64,000 nucleotides of DNA, taken from NCBI RefSeq assembly GCF_003590775.1, contig NZ_QYUM01000003.1, forward strand, positions 1,242,501-1,306,500. The letters are read 5' to 3'. Under the pieces are notes generated by a model. It had not been told where the DNA came from, did not search any database, and saw only the letters and a list, made by a program, of their open reading frames with translations. This document shows positions 9,723 to 32,814 of the stretch, piece after piece (within the stretch, counting starts at the first letter, position 1; every line of letters begins with the position of its first letter). The DNA comes from Sphingomonas cavernae. Its GTDB lineage: Bacteria > Pseudomonadota > Alphaproteobacteria > Sphingomonadales > Sphingomonadaceae. The translations under genes were made by a program, and so were the position numbers.

Positions 9723-10055
9723 TTAGCCGCGCTTGTAGATGCTGAGGCGGCGGATCCGGCCGTCCTCATCGGTCTGGAAGAAATTGGCGGTACGGCGGCT
9801 GGTGCCGTCATCCAGTCTCGCCTCGATCTCGGTCGCGACGCCGCTCTCGGAGGCAATCACGGTCCTGGGCGTCGGGCTGGGCGCCTGCATCGAGAAGAGC
9901 TGGCCATACATCGCGCGGATCGCGTCACGCCCGGCGAGTTCGCGTCCGTCGGGCAGGATCATCACGGCATCCTCGACGAAGAGCGACAGCAGCGTCTCGA
10001 CGTCGCGATTGCGCATGCCGCCGAAATAGCGGTCGACCAGTTCCTGTCCCGTCAT
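9723..10055 (-). CDS. SnoaL-like NTF2-fold protein
   Basis: A 110-aa single-domain NTF2-like protein: VDRYFGGMRNRDVETLLSLFVEDAVMILPDG is the typical helix-helix-strand start of this fold, and GRIRRLSIYKRG is its last strand. It is shorter than the BaiE-like proteins and lacks the clear Tyr-Asp-His pattern, so it could be a ketosteroid-isomerase-like enzyme or a binding protein. It overlaps the upstream SDR stop by ATGA. Last gene of the Rieske operon. Confidence 0.8.
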   Translation of the reverse strand: MTGQELVDRYFGGMRNRDVETLLSLFVEDAVMILPDGRELAGRDAIRAMYGQLFSMQAPSPTPRTVIASESGVATEIEARLDDGTSRRTANFFQTDEDGRIRRLSIYKRG

Positions 10056-10858
10056 AGCAAACTCCCTCCGTCGACCGGATATACCTGCCCCGTGACGAAG
10101 CCCGCCCCATCGGAGGCGAGCCAGACGACCAGCGAGGCGACCTCTTCGGGCATCGCGACGGGGCGCCCGACCACCGTCTGGCGCGCGCGCTTCGCCATGT
10201 CCTCCACGCTGGCCCCGGCAAAGGCTTCCTTGAAGAAGCCGCTCCTGAAGCGGCTGCCTTTGCTGAAAGCGTCGGGATCGCTCGAAACCGTGCCATAGGG
10301 TGCGACGCAGTTCACGCGGATACCGTGCTGTCCTACTTCCTTCGCCAGCACTTTGGTGAAGCCGTGCACCGCGGCTTTGGCGGCGGAATAGACAGGCAGC
10401 ATGTAATCGCCGACCAGTCCCGCGGTGGAACCGATATGGACGATCGCGCCGCCCCTGGCCGCGATCATGCCGGGCAGAACGGCATGCGTCATGCGCAGCA
10501 CTGTGCCCAGATTGAGATCGATGTCGCCCGCCCAGGTCGCGGGATCGGAGTCCGCGAAGAAGCCCGCGCCGACATTGCCGCCGACATTGTTGACGAGCAC
10601 GCCAACCGCGCCAAGCTCAAACGCCGCCTCAAGAATGCGCGAGGGCGACGCCGGGTCGGTCATGTCGGCGGGCACAAAGCGAGCGTCGGCCGCACCGCGA
10701 TCCTTGCACAGGGCGACCAGCCGCTCGCCGGCTTCCAGATCGCGGCCCACGCCCACGACATTTGCACCTTCCGCGGCGAGGCCAAGCGCGATGGCGCGGC
10801 CGATATTCGCGGTTGCGCCAGTCACGATCGCAACCTTGCCTGCAAGTCCCGTGTCCAC
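10052..10858 (-). CDS. Short-chain dehydrogenase/reductase (intact copy)
   Basis: A 268-aa SDR: TGATANIGRAIALGLA at the cofactor loop, NNVGGNVGAG, catalytic YSAAK, and PVDGGSLL at the C-terminus. Its first 120 codons lie inside a 941-bp exact tandem repeat; a truncated copy of the same N-terminus is present at 11439-11799. This intact copy is the one that continues into the SnoaL-like gene (ATGA overlap). Probable role is oxidation of an alcohol made by the Rieske oxygenase in the same operon; this is inferred from context. Confidence 0.9.
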   Translation of the reverse strand: MDTGLAGKVAIVTGATANIGRAIALGLAAEGANVVGVGRDLEAGERLVALCKDRGAADARFVPADMTDPASPSRILEAAFELGAVGVLVNNVGGNVGAGFFADSDPATWAGDIDLNLGTVLRMTHAVLPGMIAARGGAIVHIGSTAGLVGDYMLPVYSAAKAAVHGFTKVLAKEVGQHGIRVNCVAPYGTVSSDPDAFSKGSRFRSGFFKEAFAGASVEDMAKRARQTVVGRPVAMPEEVASLVVWLASDGAGFVTGQVYPVDGGSLL

Positions 10859-10887
10859 ACTGCCTCTCCCGAAACGGCGCGCGCCGC

Positions 10888-11223
10888 TCAGACGTCGGCG
10901 GGGGCGCGGGTGATTCTCATCGCTTCACGATGTGGCGTATGGCTTGCCTCGTCACTGCCCTGAACTTCAACCGCCTGGGCGATATGCGCAAGCGACAGGC
11001 AGAGATTCATAAGACGCTGCTCGCCGGCATCGTACTCTGCGAGTGGTTTTGCATCGAGCAATGCGAGCGCCGGGACGAGCAGGGGCTTGCCCGCTTCGAA
11101 AAAGGCGCTGCGCTCTGCTTCGGTAGAAGTCGACCTGCGGTTCGCGCGATTGGCGGAGCCTTCCAGCGCCCAATTTTCGACAAAGGGCTCCAGCACCTCG
11201 AAGCCGGTGGGGAGCCGGGTCAT
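10888..11223 (-). CDS. 111-aa conserved-looking protein, duplicate copy
   Basis: Identical to the gene at 11829-12164 because it lies in the tandem duplication. Its ATG overlaps the stop of the truncated Rieske tail (ATGA). It is followed 29 bp later by the intact SDR, so this copy keeps the original downstream neighbour. The same reading frame is also open upstream through the repeat junction, so a hybrid 303-aa frame starting at 11799 ends here. The protein is rich in Ala, Leu and Glu and probably helical, with no motif that names a function. Confidence 0.75.
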   Translation of the reverse strand: MTRLPTGFEVLEPFVENWALEGSANRANRRSTSTEAERSAFFEAGKPLLVPALALLDAKPLAEYDAGEQRLMNLCLSLAHIAQAVEVQGSDEASHTPHREAMRITRAPADV

Positions 11224-11438
11224 GCCGCACATCCCGCAGTCGCCTGCTCGACCTTCCAGGATTCGACCGCATCGCGGACGCCGTTGAACAGGTGGCGACA
11301 CAACGCCTCCTGCGTCTGGAAATGGATATGCTTCAAGGCGCCGCTTGAAAGCCCGCGCTGCCCGGCGGCGATCACCGCGCGGTCCTCGGCATGGATGTCG
11401 CGCGCCGTCGCCATCGCAAATTCGCGCGCGAAGCGCTC
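11220..11438 (-). pseudogene. Rieske oxygenase 3' fragment in the duplicated unit
   Basis: The last 72 codons of the Rieske gene, identical to 12161-12379, without the Rieske cluster, mononuclear-iron site or own start. It is a by-product of the tandem duplication and is not expected to make a functional enzyme. Confidence 0.9.
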
Positions 11439-11799
11439 GCACTGTGCCCAGATTGAGATCGATGTCGCCCGCCCAGGTCGCGGGATCGGAGTCCGCGAAG
11501 AAGCCCGCGCCGACATTGCCGCCGACATTGTTGACGAGCACGCCAACCGCGCCAAGCTCAAACGCCGCCTCAAGAATGCGCGAGGGCGACGCCGGGTCGG
11601 TCATGTCGGCGGGCACAAAGCGAGCGTCGGCCGCACCGCGATCCTTGCACAGGGCGACCAGCCGCTCGCCGGCTTCCAGATCGCGGCCCACGCCCACGAC
11701 ATTTGCACCTTCCGCGGCGAGGCCAAGCGCGATGGCGCGGCCGATATTCGCGGTTGCGCCAGTCACGATCGCAACCTTGCCTGCAAGTCCCGTGTCCAC
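11439..11799 (-). pseudogene. Truncated SDR N-terminus in the duplicated unit
   Basis: The first 120 codons of the SDR, identical to 10498-10858. The cofactor loop is present but the fragment stops before the YSAAK catalytic motif. At the repeat junction the frame runs on through 72 out-of-frame codons of Rieske sequence and then, by chance, enters the 111-aa gene in frame, giving a 303-codon hybrid (10888-11799). It retains the SDR ribosome-binding context and could be translated, but catalytic function is unlikely. Confidence 0.85.
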
Positions 11800-11828
11800 A
11801 CTGCCTCTCCCGAAACGGCGCGCGCCGC

Positions 11829-12164
11829 TCAGACGTCGGCGGGGGCGCGGGTGATTCTCATCGCTTCACGATGTGGCGTATGGCTTGCCTCGTCACTGCC
11901 CTGAACTTCAACCGCCTGGGCGATATGCGCAAGCGACAGGCAGAGATTCATAAGACGCTGCTCGCCGGCATCGTACTCTGCGAGTGGTTTTGCATCGAGC
12001 AATGCGAGCGCCGGGACGAGCAGGGGCTTGCCCGCTTCGAAAAAGGCGCTGCGCTCTGCTTCGGTAGAAGTCGACCTGCGGTTCGCGCGATTGGCGGAGC
12101 CTTCCAGCGCCCAATTTTCGACAAAGGGCTCCAGCACCTCGAAGCCGGTGGGGAGCCGGGTCAT
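11829..12164 (-). CDS. 111-aa protein of unknown function, coupled to the Rieske oxygenase
   Basis: The ATG at 12164 overlaps the Rieske stop as ATGA, which sets the start. The product (MTRLPTGFEVLEPFVENWAL...) is 111 aa, without signal peptide, membrane segment or cysteine cluster. Its tight coupling suggests an accessory role for the oxygenase, but I do not recognise a named family. It lacks the features of a small-subunit (beta) aromatic dioxygenase and of a ferredoxin. A second identical copy exists at 10888-11223. Confidence 0.8.
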   Translation of the reverse strand: MTRLPTGFEVLEPFVENWALEGSANRANRRSTSTEAERSAFFEAGKPLLVPALALLDAKPLAEYDAGEQRLMNLCLSLAHIAQAVEVQGSDEASHTPHREAMRITRAPADV

Positions 12165-13363
12165 GCCGCACATCCCGCAGTCGCCTGCTCGACCTTCCAG
12201 GATTCGACCGCATCGCGGACGCCGTTGAACAGGTGGCGACACAACGCCTCCTGCGTCTGGAAATGGATATGCTTCAAGGCGCCGCTTGAAAGCCCGCGCT
12301 GCCCGGCGGCGATCACCGCGCGGTCCTCGGCATGGATGTCGCGCGCCGTCGCCATCGCAAATTCGCGCGCGAAGCGCTCGCTGGCATTACCGTCCTCGCC
12401 GACCCAGTAGATCCGGATCACGCCGCGCGAACGCGTCGCCGAGATCGGATACACGGTGTGGGAAAAGTGCTGGATCGGAGTTCCGAGCAGAAAGAAATTT
12501 GGAAAGAGCGCGAAATATTCGCGGTCATTCGGTCCACCTACGATGCCGCGCCGCATGCCCGCCTCATATCCCTTGCCGAACGCCATGCCCTGCGTCGGCT
12601 GGACTCTGGGCTCGGGGTTCGTCCAGATGGATTGCGTGCGGTGCGGGCCGTTGAAGCCATAGCGCAACGGATAGCCGAAGGGATTGTCCTGGCTCAGCGT
12701 CGCCTGCCCGGTGCGCGGATGGATAAAGCGCAGGTGGTAGTTCTCCTGGAAATTGTCGTAGGTCAGCTTCCAGTTCGCTTCGATGTCATAAACATATTCG
12801 GAAAAGGTCGTGGCCTGCGCCACCGGCAGCGTTTCTAGCCGCTCCGCGAGCCCCTGTAGCCAGTCGCGCAGGGGTGCAGGGTCCGGATCGAAGTTGATGA
12901 AGATCAGACCGGCGCAGACTTCGAGCGCAATCGACGGCAAGGCGCAGTCGGCCTTGGAGACATGAAACGCCTCAAAATCCGGCGCCGAGATCAGAGCGCC
13001 GTCCGTACCGAAGGTCCATCTGTGATAGGGGCAACTGAAGGTGGCGCGCTTGCCTTGCACATCGTCGACCAACTGCGTGCCACGGTGCGTGCAGACATTG
13101 TGGAAGGCGCGAATACCGCCATCCTTGCCGCGGACGATCAGGACGGAAGCATTCGCAAACTCCATCTCGCGGCGGATGAAGCTGCCTGACTCGGGCAGCT
13201 CGCAGACATGGCCGACCTGGATCCAGCTACGCAGGAACACGGCCTTGCGTTCGAGTTCAAACCAGTCGGCGTCGTAATAGGGGGCTGCAGGAATCGGATC
13301 CGTGCCGAGGAAGGCGACGTCCTTATTCGAGACCTGCTCGAACCCCCTGGGCGGAGCGTTCAT
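12161..13363 (-). CDS. Rieske non-heme iron oxygenase, alpha subunit
   Basis: A 400-aa protein of the usual alpha-subunit length. The [2Fe-2S] Rieske ligands are C91-x-H93 (CTHRG) and C111-x-x-H114 (CPYHRW). The mononuclear-iron site includes D203, H210 and H215 in DNFQENYHLRFIHP. It would insert oxygen into an organic substrate (hydroxylation, dealkylation or dihydroxylation), taking electrons from a ferredoxin/reductase not encoded beside it. Spacing of the motifs resembles the choline/carnitine monooxygenase and ring-hydroxylating group. First gene of the operon; a TetR gene and an operator-like palindrome lie just upstream. The last 72 codons are duplicated. Confidence 0.94.
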   Translation of the reverse strand: MNAPPRGFEQVSNKDVAFLGTDPIPAAPYYDADWFELERKAVFLRSWIQVGHVCELPESGSFIRREMEFANASVLIVRGKDGGIRAFHNVCTHRGTQLVDDVQGKRATFSCPYHRWTFGTDGALISAPDFEAFHVSKADCALPSIALEVCAGLIFINFDPDPAPLRDWLQGLAERLETLPVAQATTFSEYVYDIEANWKLTYDNFQENYHLRFIHPRTGQATLSQDNPFGYPLRYGFNGPHRTQSIWTNPEPRVQPTQGMAFGKGYEAGMRRGIVGGPNDREYFALFPNFFLLGTPIQHFSHTVYPISATRSRGVIRIYWVGEDGNASERFAREFAMATARDIHAEDRAVIAAGQRGLSSGALKHIHFQTQEALCRHLFNGVRDAVESWKVEQATAGCAA

Positions 13364-13445: not shown

Positions 13446-14036
13446 TTAGATTGCGTCCTCGCCTCTGGTGAGGCTCAGGTCGCGCAGCAATCGCTGTTGC
13501 TCACGGCGAAAGCGCTCCATGATCTCGGCATCACTGGCGTCGGGGCGCACCGCGTTGCGAAAGACCCGCGGGCCGATCACCGCGCCGGTGATGAGGATCG
13601 TGCAGAATATCTCGGCATCGGTGCGGCCTGTGCTTGCAAGGTCCGTCACGCCCTTCACCAGCGCATCCCACTGCGGATAACTCTCCCTGATGTCGGATCC
13701 GGAGACGAAATCCTCGATCCACAATTTGATGAGCTCGGGATTCTGCAGGACGAAGCGGCTGAGATGATCGATCCGCTCGTCCTGCGGAGCAGGGTCGTTG
13801 AAGGCCGCAACGAGTTGTTCGGAAGACCAGTGACGTACGGCGCGCAGAAGCGCGTCGCGCGTGCTGAAATGATAATAGACGGTCGTCCGGTTGATGCTCG
13901 TGGCGCGGGCGAGCGCGGCAATGGAGAGCGCATCCGCACCTTTTTCCGAGATGAGCCTGACGGCGGTTTCGATCAGCGCGCGATGCGTCTCGTCATAACC
14001 CCGGTTGGGTTTGCGGCTTTCGACAGTGTCATTCAT
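13446..14036 (-). CDS. TetR-family transcriptional regulator
   Basis: A 196-aa repressor. The N-terminal DNA-binding domain is complete: ETAVRLISEKGADALSIAALARATSINRTTVYYHFSTRDALL. The C-terminal ~140 residues are the helical ligand-binding domain. The ATG at 14036 (MNDTVESRKP) gives the usual length; an ATG 18 bp upstream is also possible. It lies directly upstream of the Rieske operon on the same strand and probably controls it through the site at 13421-13440. An IS element was inserted about 60 bp upstream of its start and separates it from the aldo/keto reductase gene. Confidence 0.9.
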   Translation of the reverse strand: MNDTVESRKPNRGYDETHRALIETAVRLISEKGADALSIAALARATSINRTTVYYHFSTRDALLRAVRHWSSEQLVAAFNDPAPQDERIDHLSRFVLQNPELIKLWIEDFVSGSDIRESYPQWDALVKGVTDLASTGRTDAEIFCTILITGAVIGPRVFRNAVRPDASDAEIMERFRREQQRLLRDLSLTRGEDAI

Positions 14037-14096
14037 GCATGCGACATGCCGCATCCGGGCGCGATTTGACAGTCCAGGGGTCACTTGCAGGGATTA

Positions 14097-14943
14097 GGCG
14101 GCGTGGACGAATTGGTTGACGTGGACGGTGTGGGTTGATTCAAGGCTGCCTTTTGGAGGCAGGTTTGAGCCGGGGCGATCTGAGCGAAGCAGAATGGCGC
14201 GTTCTGAAGGGTCTGCTGCCGATCGAGCCAGAGAACCGAGGGCGCGGCCGCAGGCCTGAGCAGAATCTCTCGATAGTCAACGGCATACTCTGGCGGCTGC
14301 GCTGTGGGACTGCTTGGCGCGATGTCCCGCCAAAATACGGCAATTGGAACACGATCTACCGGCGGTTCCGTCGTTGGAGCGAGGCCGGGGTCTGGGAGGC
14401 CGTGTCGGTGACGCTTGCCGAGATCATGGCCGACACCGGACACTACAGCATCGACAGCACCACCCTTCGCGCCCATGTCTCGGCAGCGGGCGGAAAAGGG
14501 GGACTTGTCGACGCGCTCTTGGCCGCTCGCGGGGCGGGTTCACCAGTAAGCTTCACTGTCTGGCTGATGCCCGAGGACGCCCCGTCGCCTTCCACCTGAC
14601 TGGTGGTGAAGCCGCCGACTGCACGGCCTATGACACGCTGATCCGCCTGCCGGACCGCGCTCCGGCGGCTCTGCTGGCCGACAAAGGCTACGACACCAAC
14701 GCCATTCGCGCCGATCTCGCGAGCCGCAGCATACAGGCTGTCATCCCGGCGCGCTCCAATCGCCGAGAAAGGATCGAGCACGATCGGCAGCTCTACAGGC
14801 AGCGAAACGGCATTGAGCGAATGTTCGGCAAGCTGAAAATCAATCGTGCCGTCGCCACCCGCTACGATCAAACGCCCTCAAGTTTCCTCGGCATGGTCCA
14901 TCTCGCTGCCATCCGGCTTTGGATCAAATTCGTCCACGCCGCC
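14097..14943 (+). mobile_element. IS5-family (IS427-type) insertion sequence, 847 bp
   Basis: The element is bounded by perfect 17-bp terminal inverted repeats starting GGCGGCGTGGACGAATT at 14097 and ending at 14943, and flanked by TA on both sides (14095-14096 and 14944-14945), consistent with the TA-type target preference of IS427 elements. It carries one transposase in two overlapping frames. The target was the stop codon of the aldo/keto reductase gene on the other strand. Confidence 0.93.
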
Positions 14944-14946
14944 TAG
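14165..14946 (+). CDS. IS5-family transposase made by -1 frameshift
   Basis: The first frame (to 14599) has the N-terminal region LSEAEWRVLKGLLP and the first catalytic aspartate in IDSTTLRAH. The second frame, one base back, has ALGRSRGGFTSKLH, the second aspartate in LLADKGYD and the glutamate in NGIERMFGKLK, completing the DDE set. The frames meet at the slippery run AAAAGGGGG (14494-14502), where -1 slippage gives a normal family sequence. I chose TTG at 14165 because GGAGG lies just before it. The stop TAG uses the target TA plus the next host base. It appears intact, not decayed. Confidence 0.88.
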
Positions 14947-30606: not shown

Positions 30607-32814
30607 CTAGCCCCGTGTGCGCGGCAGGCCGAGGCCGCGTTCCGCGATCATGCTGCGATGAACCTCGCTGGTGCCGCCGTAAATGGTCGATCCCTGCGCA
30701 TGGCGATAGAACATGTTGATTTCGGCTGCTGCGCCCTTGCGCTTCGACAAGGATAGCGGTGCGGTGAGATCGATCAGGTCGCGGGCGTCGCTCAGGAATT
30801 TTTCGGAACTGAACATCTTCGCCATCGGCCCATAAGCATGATTGGGCTTCTTTTCCGCGATCACCCATTGCGCGCGGAAGGTGATGAGTTCCGACACCCA
30901 TAGATTGGCGGCTGTACGGGCGAGGCGCACCTGGGCGGACTGATCGTCGATCAATGGTTTTCCGCGATAGCCGATCTCGCGGCACAGCGTTTCGGCCGCG
31001 TGTAGCATGGCGCGCTGATATTTCGAAAAGCCGCCGCCATGTTCCAGCTCCAGGCTGGCGCTCATCGTGCGGACGCCGCCGTCGACTTCACCCAGGCGCC
31101 AACTGTCCGGGATGTGGACGCCATCATAGAAGGTGATGTTCGTGCGTTCGTCCTGGAAGGTGTAGACGGGCTGTACCGTCACGCCATCGGCCTTCAGCGG
31201 GACGATGAACATGGTGAGGCCCTTGTGCTTGGCCACATCGGGGTTGGTGCGCGTCAGCATCAGCACATAATCGGAAAGATTGGCGCCGCTGGTGAACATC
31301 TTGGTGCCGTCGATCCGCCAGCCATTCCCATCGGGCGTCGCGCGACACTGCGCCGCGAACACGTCGGAGCCCGAGCCCGGCTCCGAATAGCCGAGGCTGC
31401 AGATCGCTTCGCCGCGCATGAGCCGGGGCAGCACCTCCTGCTTCAATTCATCGGTGCCGAAGCGGTTGATGATCAGCGCCACCATCTGCGTCACGCCGGC
31501 GGCGGGGTTGTTGTAGCCCTGCACCTCGAAGGCATCCATCGCGGCGATCTTGGCGTAGGACGAAAGGCCGCGCCCGCCGACATCCTTGGGGAGGCCGAGA
31601 TAGAGGAGGTTGGATTCGGCAAGTTTCCGGTTCAGCTCGGGATTATAACCTTCCCAGCTATAGTGGAACGTCTCGCGCATCTCCGGCGTGACGTTCTTTG
31701 CGAAGAACTCCTCGATCTCGCGCGTGATTGTCCTGGCGTCCTCGCCAAGATCGAACTCGATCGGGGTCGCGCCGACATCCGGCAGCGCGGCCTGCTCGCC
31801 CGCATAGAGGCGGCGGCCGGCTTCCTCGATCAGTCGCTGCGGATCGCCCAGCACCAGCGGCCATGCCTTGGCGCGCAGGTTGAAGAGGAAGATGTCATAT
31901 TCGGTGGTGAGGCCGTAGCCGCCGAAAGTATGGAGCGCCTGCGCCACGGCACGGGCAGCGGCGTCTGCGTTCCACCAGCCGGCCAGCGATATGGTGGCGC
32001 CGGCGTCCTTCGTGCCGTCGGCTATATCGCGGATCGCCTTCCACACCAGAAACTTGCCGCCGTCCACGTCGCACAGGAGATCGGCGAGCGGATGCGAGAT
32101 GCCCTGGAACTCGCCGATGAACTGCCCGAACTGCTTGCGTTCGCAAGCATAAGCGGCGGCGAGCCTGAGCGCTTCGCGACCGATGCCGGCAAGACCGGCG
32201 CCGATCAGCAGTTTCCACTCTTCGATGCCTTTAACGAAGGTCGCGAGCGCGTCGTCGCCCGAGGCCAGCGTCACGCGCGGGTGCGCAGCAAGATCGATCT
32301 CGGCCAACGGCGTGCCGGCGAGATTTTCCTCGGCCTTGCGGCCTGATTCCGGAACGGAGACGAGGACGATATCATTGCCCATGCGCGCAATAACGGCTTC
32401 GGCGACGAGACCGCCGGCGACCCACTGGACAGGCTCGGCGGCGATATCGCGGAACGCGAGGCTGGCGACGGCTTCACCCGAAATGACACGGCCGAAAAGG
32501 TCCGTGGTCTGATCGCCGCCCAGTTGTGCGAGCAACCGAGCCGTCACCAGGGTTTCGGCAAGCGGTCCGGAAACGAGCGTTCGCCCGGCCTCTTCCATCA
32601 GGATAACGGCATCGAACAGGCCCAGCCCGAGCCCGCCCGCCTCTTCGGGAACGCGGATCGACAGCGCGCCGAGTTCAGCAAGCCCCGTCCAGAGCTTGGC
32701 ATCGAAGCCGGAAGGGGCGGCCGCGCGGACGCGGGCCATGGAGCTGTTTTCATCGAGGAAGCGCGCGAACATGTCGCGCATCATTTCCTGATCTTCGGTC
32801 AGGTCGAAATTCAT
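30607..32814 (-). CDS. Two-domain (fused) acyl-CoA dehydrogenase
   Basis: A 735-aa protein, twice the usual acyl-CoA dehydrogenase length, containing two homologous halves. Residues about 1-345 form a first half with ERKQFGQFIGEFQGISHPLADL and LHTFGGYGLTTEYDIF but no SEPGSGSD motif. Residues about 355-735 form a second half with YSEPGSGSDVFAAQ and the FAD/active-site end GGTSEVHRSMIAERGLG. This resembles the actinobacterial steroid dehydrogenase FadE34, a fusion of the alpha and beta subunits that usually form alpha2beta2 complexes for bulky steroid CoA esters. Substrate is inferred to be a bulky branched acyl-CoA. Operon with enoyl-CoA hydratase, SDR and ferredoxin. Confidence 0.88.
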   Translation of the reverse strand: MNFDLTEDQEMMRDMFARFLDENSSMARVRAAAPSGFDAKLWTGLAELGALSIRVPEEAGGLGLGLFDAVILMEEAGRTLVSGPLAETLVTARLLAQLGGDQTTDLFGRVISGEAVASLAFRDIAAEPVQWVAGGLVAEAVIARMGNDIVLVSVPESGRKAEENLAGTPLAEIDLAAHPRVTLASGDDALATFVKGIEEWKLLIGAGLAGIGREALRLAAAYACERKQFGQFIGEFQGISHPLADLLCDVDGGKFLVWKAIRDIADGTKDAGATISLAGWWNADAAARAVAQALHTFGGYGLTTEYDIFLFNLRAKAWPLVLGDPQRLIEEAGRRLYAGEQAALPDVGATPIEFDLGEDARTITREIEEFFAKNVTPEMRETFHYSWEGYNPELNRKLAESNLLYLGLPKDVGGRGLSSYAKIAAMDAFEVQGYNNPAAGVTQMVALIINRFGTDELKQEVLPRLMRGEAICSLGYSEPGSGSDVFAAQCRATPDGNGWRIDGTKMFTSGANLSDYVLMLTRTNPDVAKHKGLTMFIVPLKADGVTVQPVYTFQDERTNITFYDGVHIPDSWRLGEVDGGVRTMSASLELEHGGGFSKYQRAMLHAAETLCREIGYRGKPLIDDQSAQVRLARTAANLWVSELITFRAQWVIAEKKPNHAYGPMAKMFSSEKFLSDARDLIDLTAPLSLSKRKGAAAEINMFYRHAQGSTIYGGTSEVHRSMIAERGLGLPRTRG

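Follow-up and report, generated by a model that had tools for sequence, protein, structure and literature searches.

An exact 941-bp tandem repeat in a Rieske oxygenase operon of Sphingomonas cavernae: a putative recent duplication and the chimeric reading frame at its junction

A Rieske oxygenase operon of Sphingomonas cavernae contains a 941-bp stretch twice, back to back and without a single difference, which raises the questions of whether the cell itself harbours both copies, how recently and by which route the second one arose, and whether it has any effect. The window, i.e., the whole 64,000-nucleotide stretch of DNA that was analysed (assembly GCF_003590775.1, contig NZ_QYUM01000003.1, positions 1,242,501–1,306,500), had been described in a first-pass annotation as carrying an exact tandem duplication with a 2-bp GC microhomology, with a recent origin or an assembly error offered as the alternatives. 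Both the description and this framing were upheld.

By script comparison, positions 10498–11438 and 11439–12379 are identical at 941 of 941 bases. No leftward extension of the match was found; to the right, identity continues for 2 bp, to 943 bp in total, with the dinucleotide GC located at 10498–10499, 11439–11440 and 12380–12381. The operon being encoded on the minus strand, 11439–12379 represents the promoter-proximal copy of the unit (A) and 10498–11438 the promoter-distal one (B). Every one of the 924 same-strand 20-mers that recur exactly in the window falls within this array, and neither other direct repeats nor any inverted repeats of at least 60 bp were reported in the 64 kb. A 2,282-bp stretch enclosing the array (10298–12579) has a single match in its own genome, of 100 % identity (contig C3, 1252798–1255079). 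Two direct copies that adjoin each other at a new junction, and unit ends that share GC but no long repeat, are features that the array has in common with bacterial short-homology tandem duplications. The earlier conclusion from perfect identity to a recent event stands insofar as the two are consistent; gene conversion or assembly polishing would, however, likewise yield identical copies.

The operon comprises genes (all on the minus strand) for a TetR regulator, a Rieske alpha subunit, a 111-aa protein, an SDR and a SnoaL-like protein. The gene for the TetR-family regulator (13446–14084, start codon uncertain; PF00440, E 2.7e-13) lies upstream of that for the ring-hydroxylating oxygenase alpha subunit (12161–13363, 400 aa), in which Rieske domain (PF00355, E 4.9e-18) and catalytic domain (PF00848, E 1.6e-33) both score above the cut-off. 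Copy A of the 111-aa gene (11829–12164) overlaps with its ATG the TGA stop of the Rieske gene (ATGA); copy B is located at 10888–11223. The SDR of 268 aa (10052–10858; PF00106, E 3.9e-48) is followed by the SnoaL/NTF2-like protein of 110 aa (9723–10055; PF12680, E 3e-13), the start of which overlaps the SDR stop. Oxygenase and SDR genes are thus whole and the small gene is doubled, as had been noted at first pass. The small gene is the only operon gene that the 941-bp unit contains whole. Promoter capture, judged from the anatomy of the array alone, was rejected as an explanation: both ends of the unit fall within genes, that for the Rieske protein and that for the SDR, and upstream of the intact SDR gene a small gene and 580 unchanged bases are retained.

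Between the two small genes lie pieces of their neighbours. A truncated SDR gene (11439–11799) encodes residues 1–120 of 268 and retains the motifs TGATANIG (residue 13) and NNVG (90) but not YSAAK (157), the roles of TGATANIG and YSAAK being general knowledge of SDRs. It abuts a 3' fragment of the Rieske gene (11220–11438; residues 329–400 plus stop), which is read out of frame. The resulting 303-codon chimeric frame (10888–11799), already recognized in the first-pass annotation, consists of SDR residues 1–120 (PF00106 match at residues 8–118), 72 out-of-frame residues and the 111-aa protein, and begins in a start context identical to that of the intact SDR. Copy B of the small gene accordingly lies in frame within the chimera, lacks the ATGA overlap with a Rieske stop and is read through as the chimera's end. 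Beside the whole Rieske gene, the frame of the small gene already extends without a stop for 74 codons ahead of the ATG. The array's junction lies 71.7 codons upstream of that ATG; given the breakpoint, a 303-codon frame therefore needs only a one-in-three fit of phase. As far as the sequence can tell, the frame bears no sign of design and is likely a by-product.

Comparison with relatives indicates the doubling to be derived, since genomes sharing the gene order have one unit. The order Rieske gene, small gene and related SDR gene was found in three other genomes, in all of which the unit is single: Sphingomonas sp. LaA6.9 of the same genus (G004, comprising loci L004 and L018; SDR identity 86 %), Sphingobium arseniciresistens (L019; about 73–74 %) and genome G229 (L141; 79 %). 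Across the whole genomes of G004 and G229 there is one small-gene match each. In a DNA search of 59 genomes including its own, the long matches besides that to itself were those in G004 (80 %, about 1.9 kb) and G028 (73 %, 1.1 kb), all remaining matches being shorter than about 200 bp. Among five genomes of the genus, the own one included, four possess the small gene, and only the own one has two copies within 1 kb. Plasmid pP6W1 carries a TetR, a Rieske, a small and an SDR gene, one of each.

The main rival of a true duplication is an artefact, in which the same 941 bp were entered twice by an assembler or scaffolder, or the junction stems from a chimeric read, and the cell has one copy. The perfect identity of the copies, the single unit in relatives with the same gene order, and a 2-bp overlap such as a chimera made by chance would also show all speak for it. 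The character of the assembly speaks against it. The genome is represented by five contigs (69,760, 1,558,539, 1,598,275, 1,005,969 and 11,554 bases), and the array is located at about 1,253,000–1,255,000 of the 1,598,275-base contig, far from the contig ends. A search of the genome with the insertion sequence (IS) neighbouring the operon yielded 21 near-full-length matches, that of the window included, which are listed at 100 % and all lie inside the contigs of 1.0–1.6 Mb; the four copies read out are each exactly 852 bp long and have different flanks. Exact direct repeats of at least 30 bp were collected from 19 sampled stretches (371,554 bp, of which 2,500 N; 8.8 % of the genome) and comprise one of 2,236 bp on contig C1 (spacing 10,153) and two of 61 and 35 bp (spacing 1,192). 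Since the 852-bp IS copies and the 2,236-bp repeat were placed inside contigs, the assembly probably is a long-read one, with reads longer than the 1.9-kb array, and because repeats of such size are resolved, a true duplication appears more likely than an artefact. The same 19 stretches contain no other back-to-back exact repeat, so that doublings of this type do not abound in the assembly; this singularity may at the same time be counted in favour of an artefact. A 16S family search gave no match in the own genome, its control being positive in 9 of 14 genomes. Taken together, an artefact is regarded as rather unlikely.

A true and recent 941-bp tandem duplication, absent from the relatives seen and joined at the shared GC by template switching or end joining, is accordingly considered reasonably probable. 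Two sites sharing nothing but a GC dinucleotide would have been joined either by template switching during replication or through the end joining of sister copies; the latter is possible because the genome encodes Ku (a Ku gene scores above the Pfam cut-off). The 2-bp overlap itself is uninformative, since 18.4 % of 200,000 random junctions in the window reach 2 bp or more. According to the accessible text of PMC3411829, cut-offs of 7, 9 and 8 bp separated true junctions from chimeras, with 11 bp for duplications after verification, and duplications occur in about 20 % of the cells of a growing population. Selected short-homology tandem duplications are reported in the accessible part of PMC11111574. 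In Escherichia coli mutation-accumulation lines, tandem duplications were absent from the 67 wild-type lines and numbered 1 in the 37 mutS lines, this sole case stemming from Illumina data, and Nanopore data gave 0 in 19 and 0 in 18 lines (accessible part of PMC10292909); such rarity counts against a true duplication here. Formation by an IS was rejected: the upstream IS copy (14095–14946) is 1.7 kb away from the array, and the array ends carry none of the terminal sequence of this IS.

A duplication of this kind would have left every original gene whole. Transcription would now proceed through Rieske gene, small gene A, truncated SDR gene (residues 1–120), out-of-frame Rieske end, small gene B, SDR and SnoaL genes, and ribosomes starting at the truncated SDR gene would read through into small gene B to form a 303-aa chimera devoid of the catalytic YxxxK of SDRs, which is probably of no use. 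The effect of the array would most likely be near-neutral, and in time it should collapse as one copy recombines with the other.

Readings that assign the array a function or a greater age have less in their favour. The first-pass annotation had considered selection for more of the small protein, i.e., a second 111-aa copy favoured since the oxygenase needs more of its partner. That the unit holds only this operon gene whole fits such selection, and so do three genomes (G076, locus L138; G261, L137; G502, L175), among 39 other genomes with the small gene, in which two tandem small genes lie upstream of one Rieske gene. Their two copies are 56–60 % identical within one genome, orthologues between genomes being about 77 % identical (L137, L138), and in the tree the copies form two clades (supports 0.946 and 0.961; 0.923 where the two join). 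Both clades contain all three genomes, which shows one old duplication, and the retained pairs demonstrate that the small gene can be doubled and kept; a reading of the present array in terms of dosage or paralogues draws mainly on them. Pairs and array agree in having two neighbouring members of the 111-aa family next to a single Rieske gene; unlike those of the array, the paired copies are diverged, and the Rieske protein encoded downstream of them is a distant one (34–35 % identity to that of the window). Against selection for dosage, such a pair was lacking in the remaining 36 of the 39 genomes, where 11 candidates per genome were scored and a pair could be missed, and identical copies carry no readable sign of selection. 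Moreover, the amount of free small protein may hardly rise, because copy B is no longer coupled to the Rieske stop and lies in the chimera. Selected dosage is therefore held to be quite improbable, and the earlier suggestion is weakened. A further view, in which the array is the newborn first step of a path completed in G076, G261 and G502, with the gene of a helical Rieske partner doubled and both copies kept, and the chimeric SDR–small protein frame an extra product, is likewise quite improbable.

The chimera could also be the product that matters, in that the nucleotide-binding half of the SDR and the small protein combine to a new activity or a tether. Its frame is open and its start context that of the intact SDR; its 72-residue linker, however, is out-of-frame Rieske sequence, its SDR half stops at residue 120, before YSAAK at 157, and a one-in-three phase match at the given breakpoint suffices to produce it, which makes this reading very improbable. 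Just as hard to credit is an older duplication, the identity of which was maintained by gene conversion. In its favour, direct copies lying side by side readily undergo conversion. Against it, such an array would usually be lost sooner by unequal crossing-over, traceless conversion of all 941 bp would be required, and the array is absent from the relatives examined.

The array directs attention to the 111-aa protein, for which no Pfam or NCBIfam match was obtained at E 0.01 and no Pfam match at E 0.1; a Pfam scan of 52 relatives at E 0.1 matched four families with one member each. The beta subunit of ring-hydroxylating oxygenases has a mixed alpha/beta, NTF2-like fold. Assignment of the 111-aa protein as such a beta (small) subunit was rejected, as it matches no Pfam or NCBIfam family and its predicted model is all-helical, with four helices, no strand and a mean pLDDT of 94.0. 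Among the best 80 of 103 Rieske loci, the small gene is located directly downstream on the same strand in 61, elsewhere in one (L059), and is absent from 18. In nine of the latter the identity of the Rieske protein is at most about 33 %, one (L080) ends at the Rieske gene and another (L073) about 300 bp after it, and the remaining seven offer room but no match. All 17 small-gene matches in 11 stretches, which were picked for holding such a match and several of which repeat loci of the Rieske set, adjoin a Rieske gene, before or after it, or adjoin a small gene that does. Two loci (L136, G002:C22:55000–69000; L139, G244:C1:1068500–1083500) each contain three Rieske genes in about 11–12 kb, every one accompanied by a small gene of its own that precedes it in some cases and follows it in others. 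Profile searches detected the small gene in 32 of the 397 genomes of the family and in 16 of the 396 of the order, together 40 genomes, the two sets overlapping and including the own genome, with 11 candidates scored per genome. Members of the protein family occur next to Rieske oxygenases both in Sphingomonadaceae and in records labelled as Gammaproteobacteria. Of seven plasmid records with a relative, four label it 'hypothetical protein', two are blank under the match and one is unannotated. No paper title on the small protein was found with a search of general wording, so that a published mention is possible. The 111-aa family may be an overlooked partner of Rieske oxygenases.

Two further observations concern the surroundings of the operon. 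The 852-bp IS element at 14095–14946, with ends TAGGCGGCGTGG and CACGCCGCCTAG, is presumably IS5-like; 21 near-full-length copies listed at 100 % identity in a 4.24-Mb genome suggest a recent burst, and the copies at C3:1229543 and C3:1256590 have the same orientation and lie about 27 kb apart around the Rieske operon. At 30607–32814 of the window, a frame of 735 aa encodes an acyl-CoA dehydrogenase in which two stretches are matched by the N-terminal domain model and two by the C-terminal one.

Judged from its sequence, the duplication is ordinary in kind, real at that level and of no known useful effect. A 303-aa chimera and a second 111-aa gene could nevertheless enter databases although they probably are artefactual or the debris of a mutation. 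What is of use beyond this is the 111-aa family, predicted to be all-helical, unnamed in Pfam and NCBIfam, and doubled and kept once before. With TDAH (accessible part of PMC11111574) and spontaneous rearrangements (accessible part of PMC3411829) the array shares head-to-tail direct copies, the lack of long junction homology and the absence of an IS from the ends; its overlap, however, is 2 bp as compared to the 9-bp borders in TDAH (PMC11111574, same part). It further differs in spanning only 941 bp in two copies, in being known from an assembly alone and in having no known selective gain. The cat genes serve the breakdown of aromatic compounds, and their amplification in Acinetobacter baylyi reportedly involves short-homology junctions and large units with whole genes, amplified under selection. 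As in that case (accessible part of PMC9997567), catabolic genes are duplicated in the S. cavernae assembly, whereas the present unit comprises a single small gene plus parts of two further genes.
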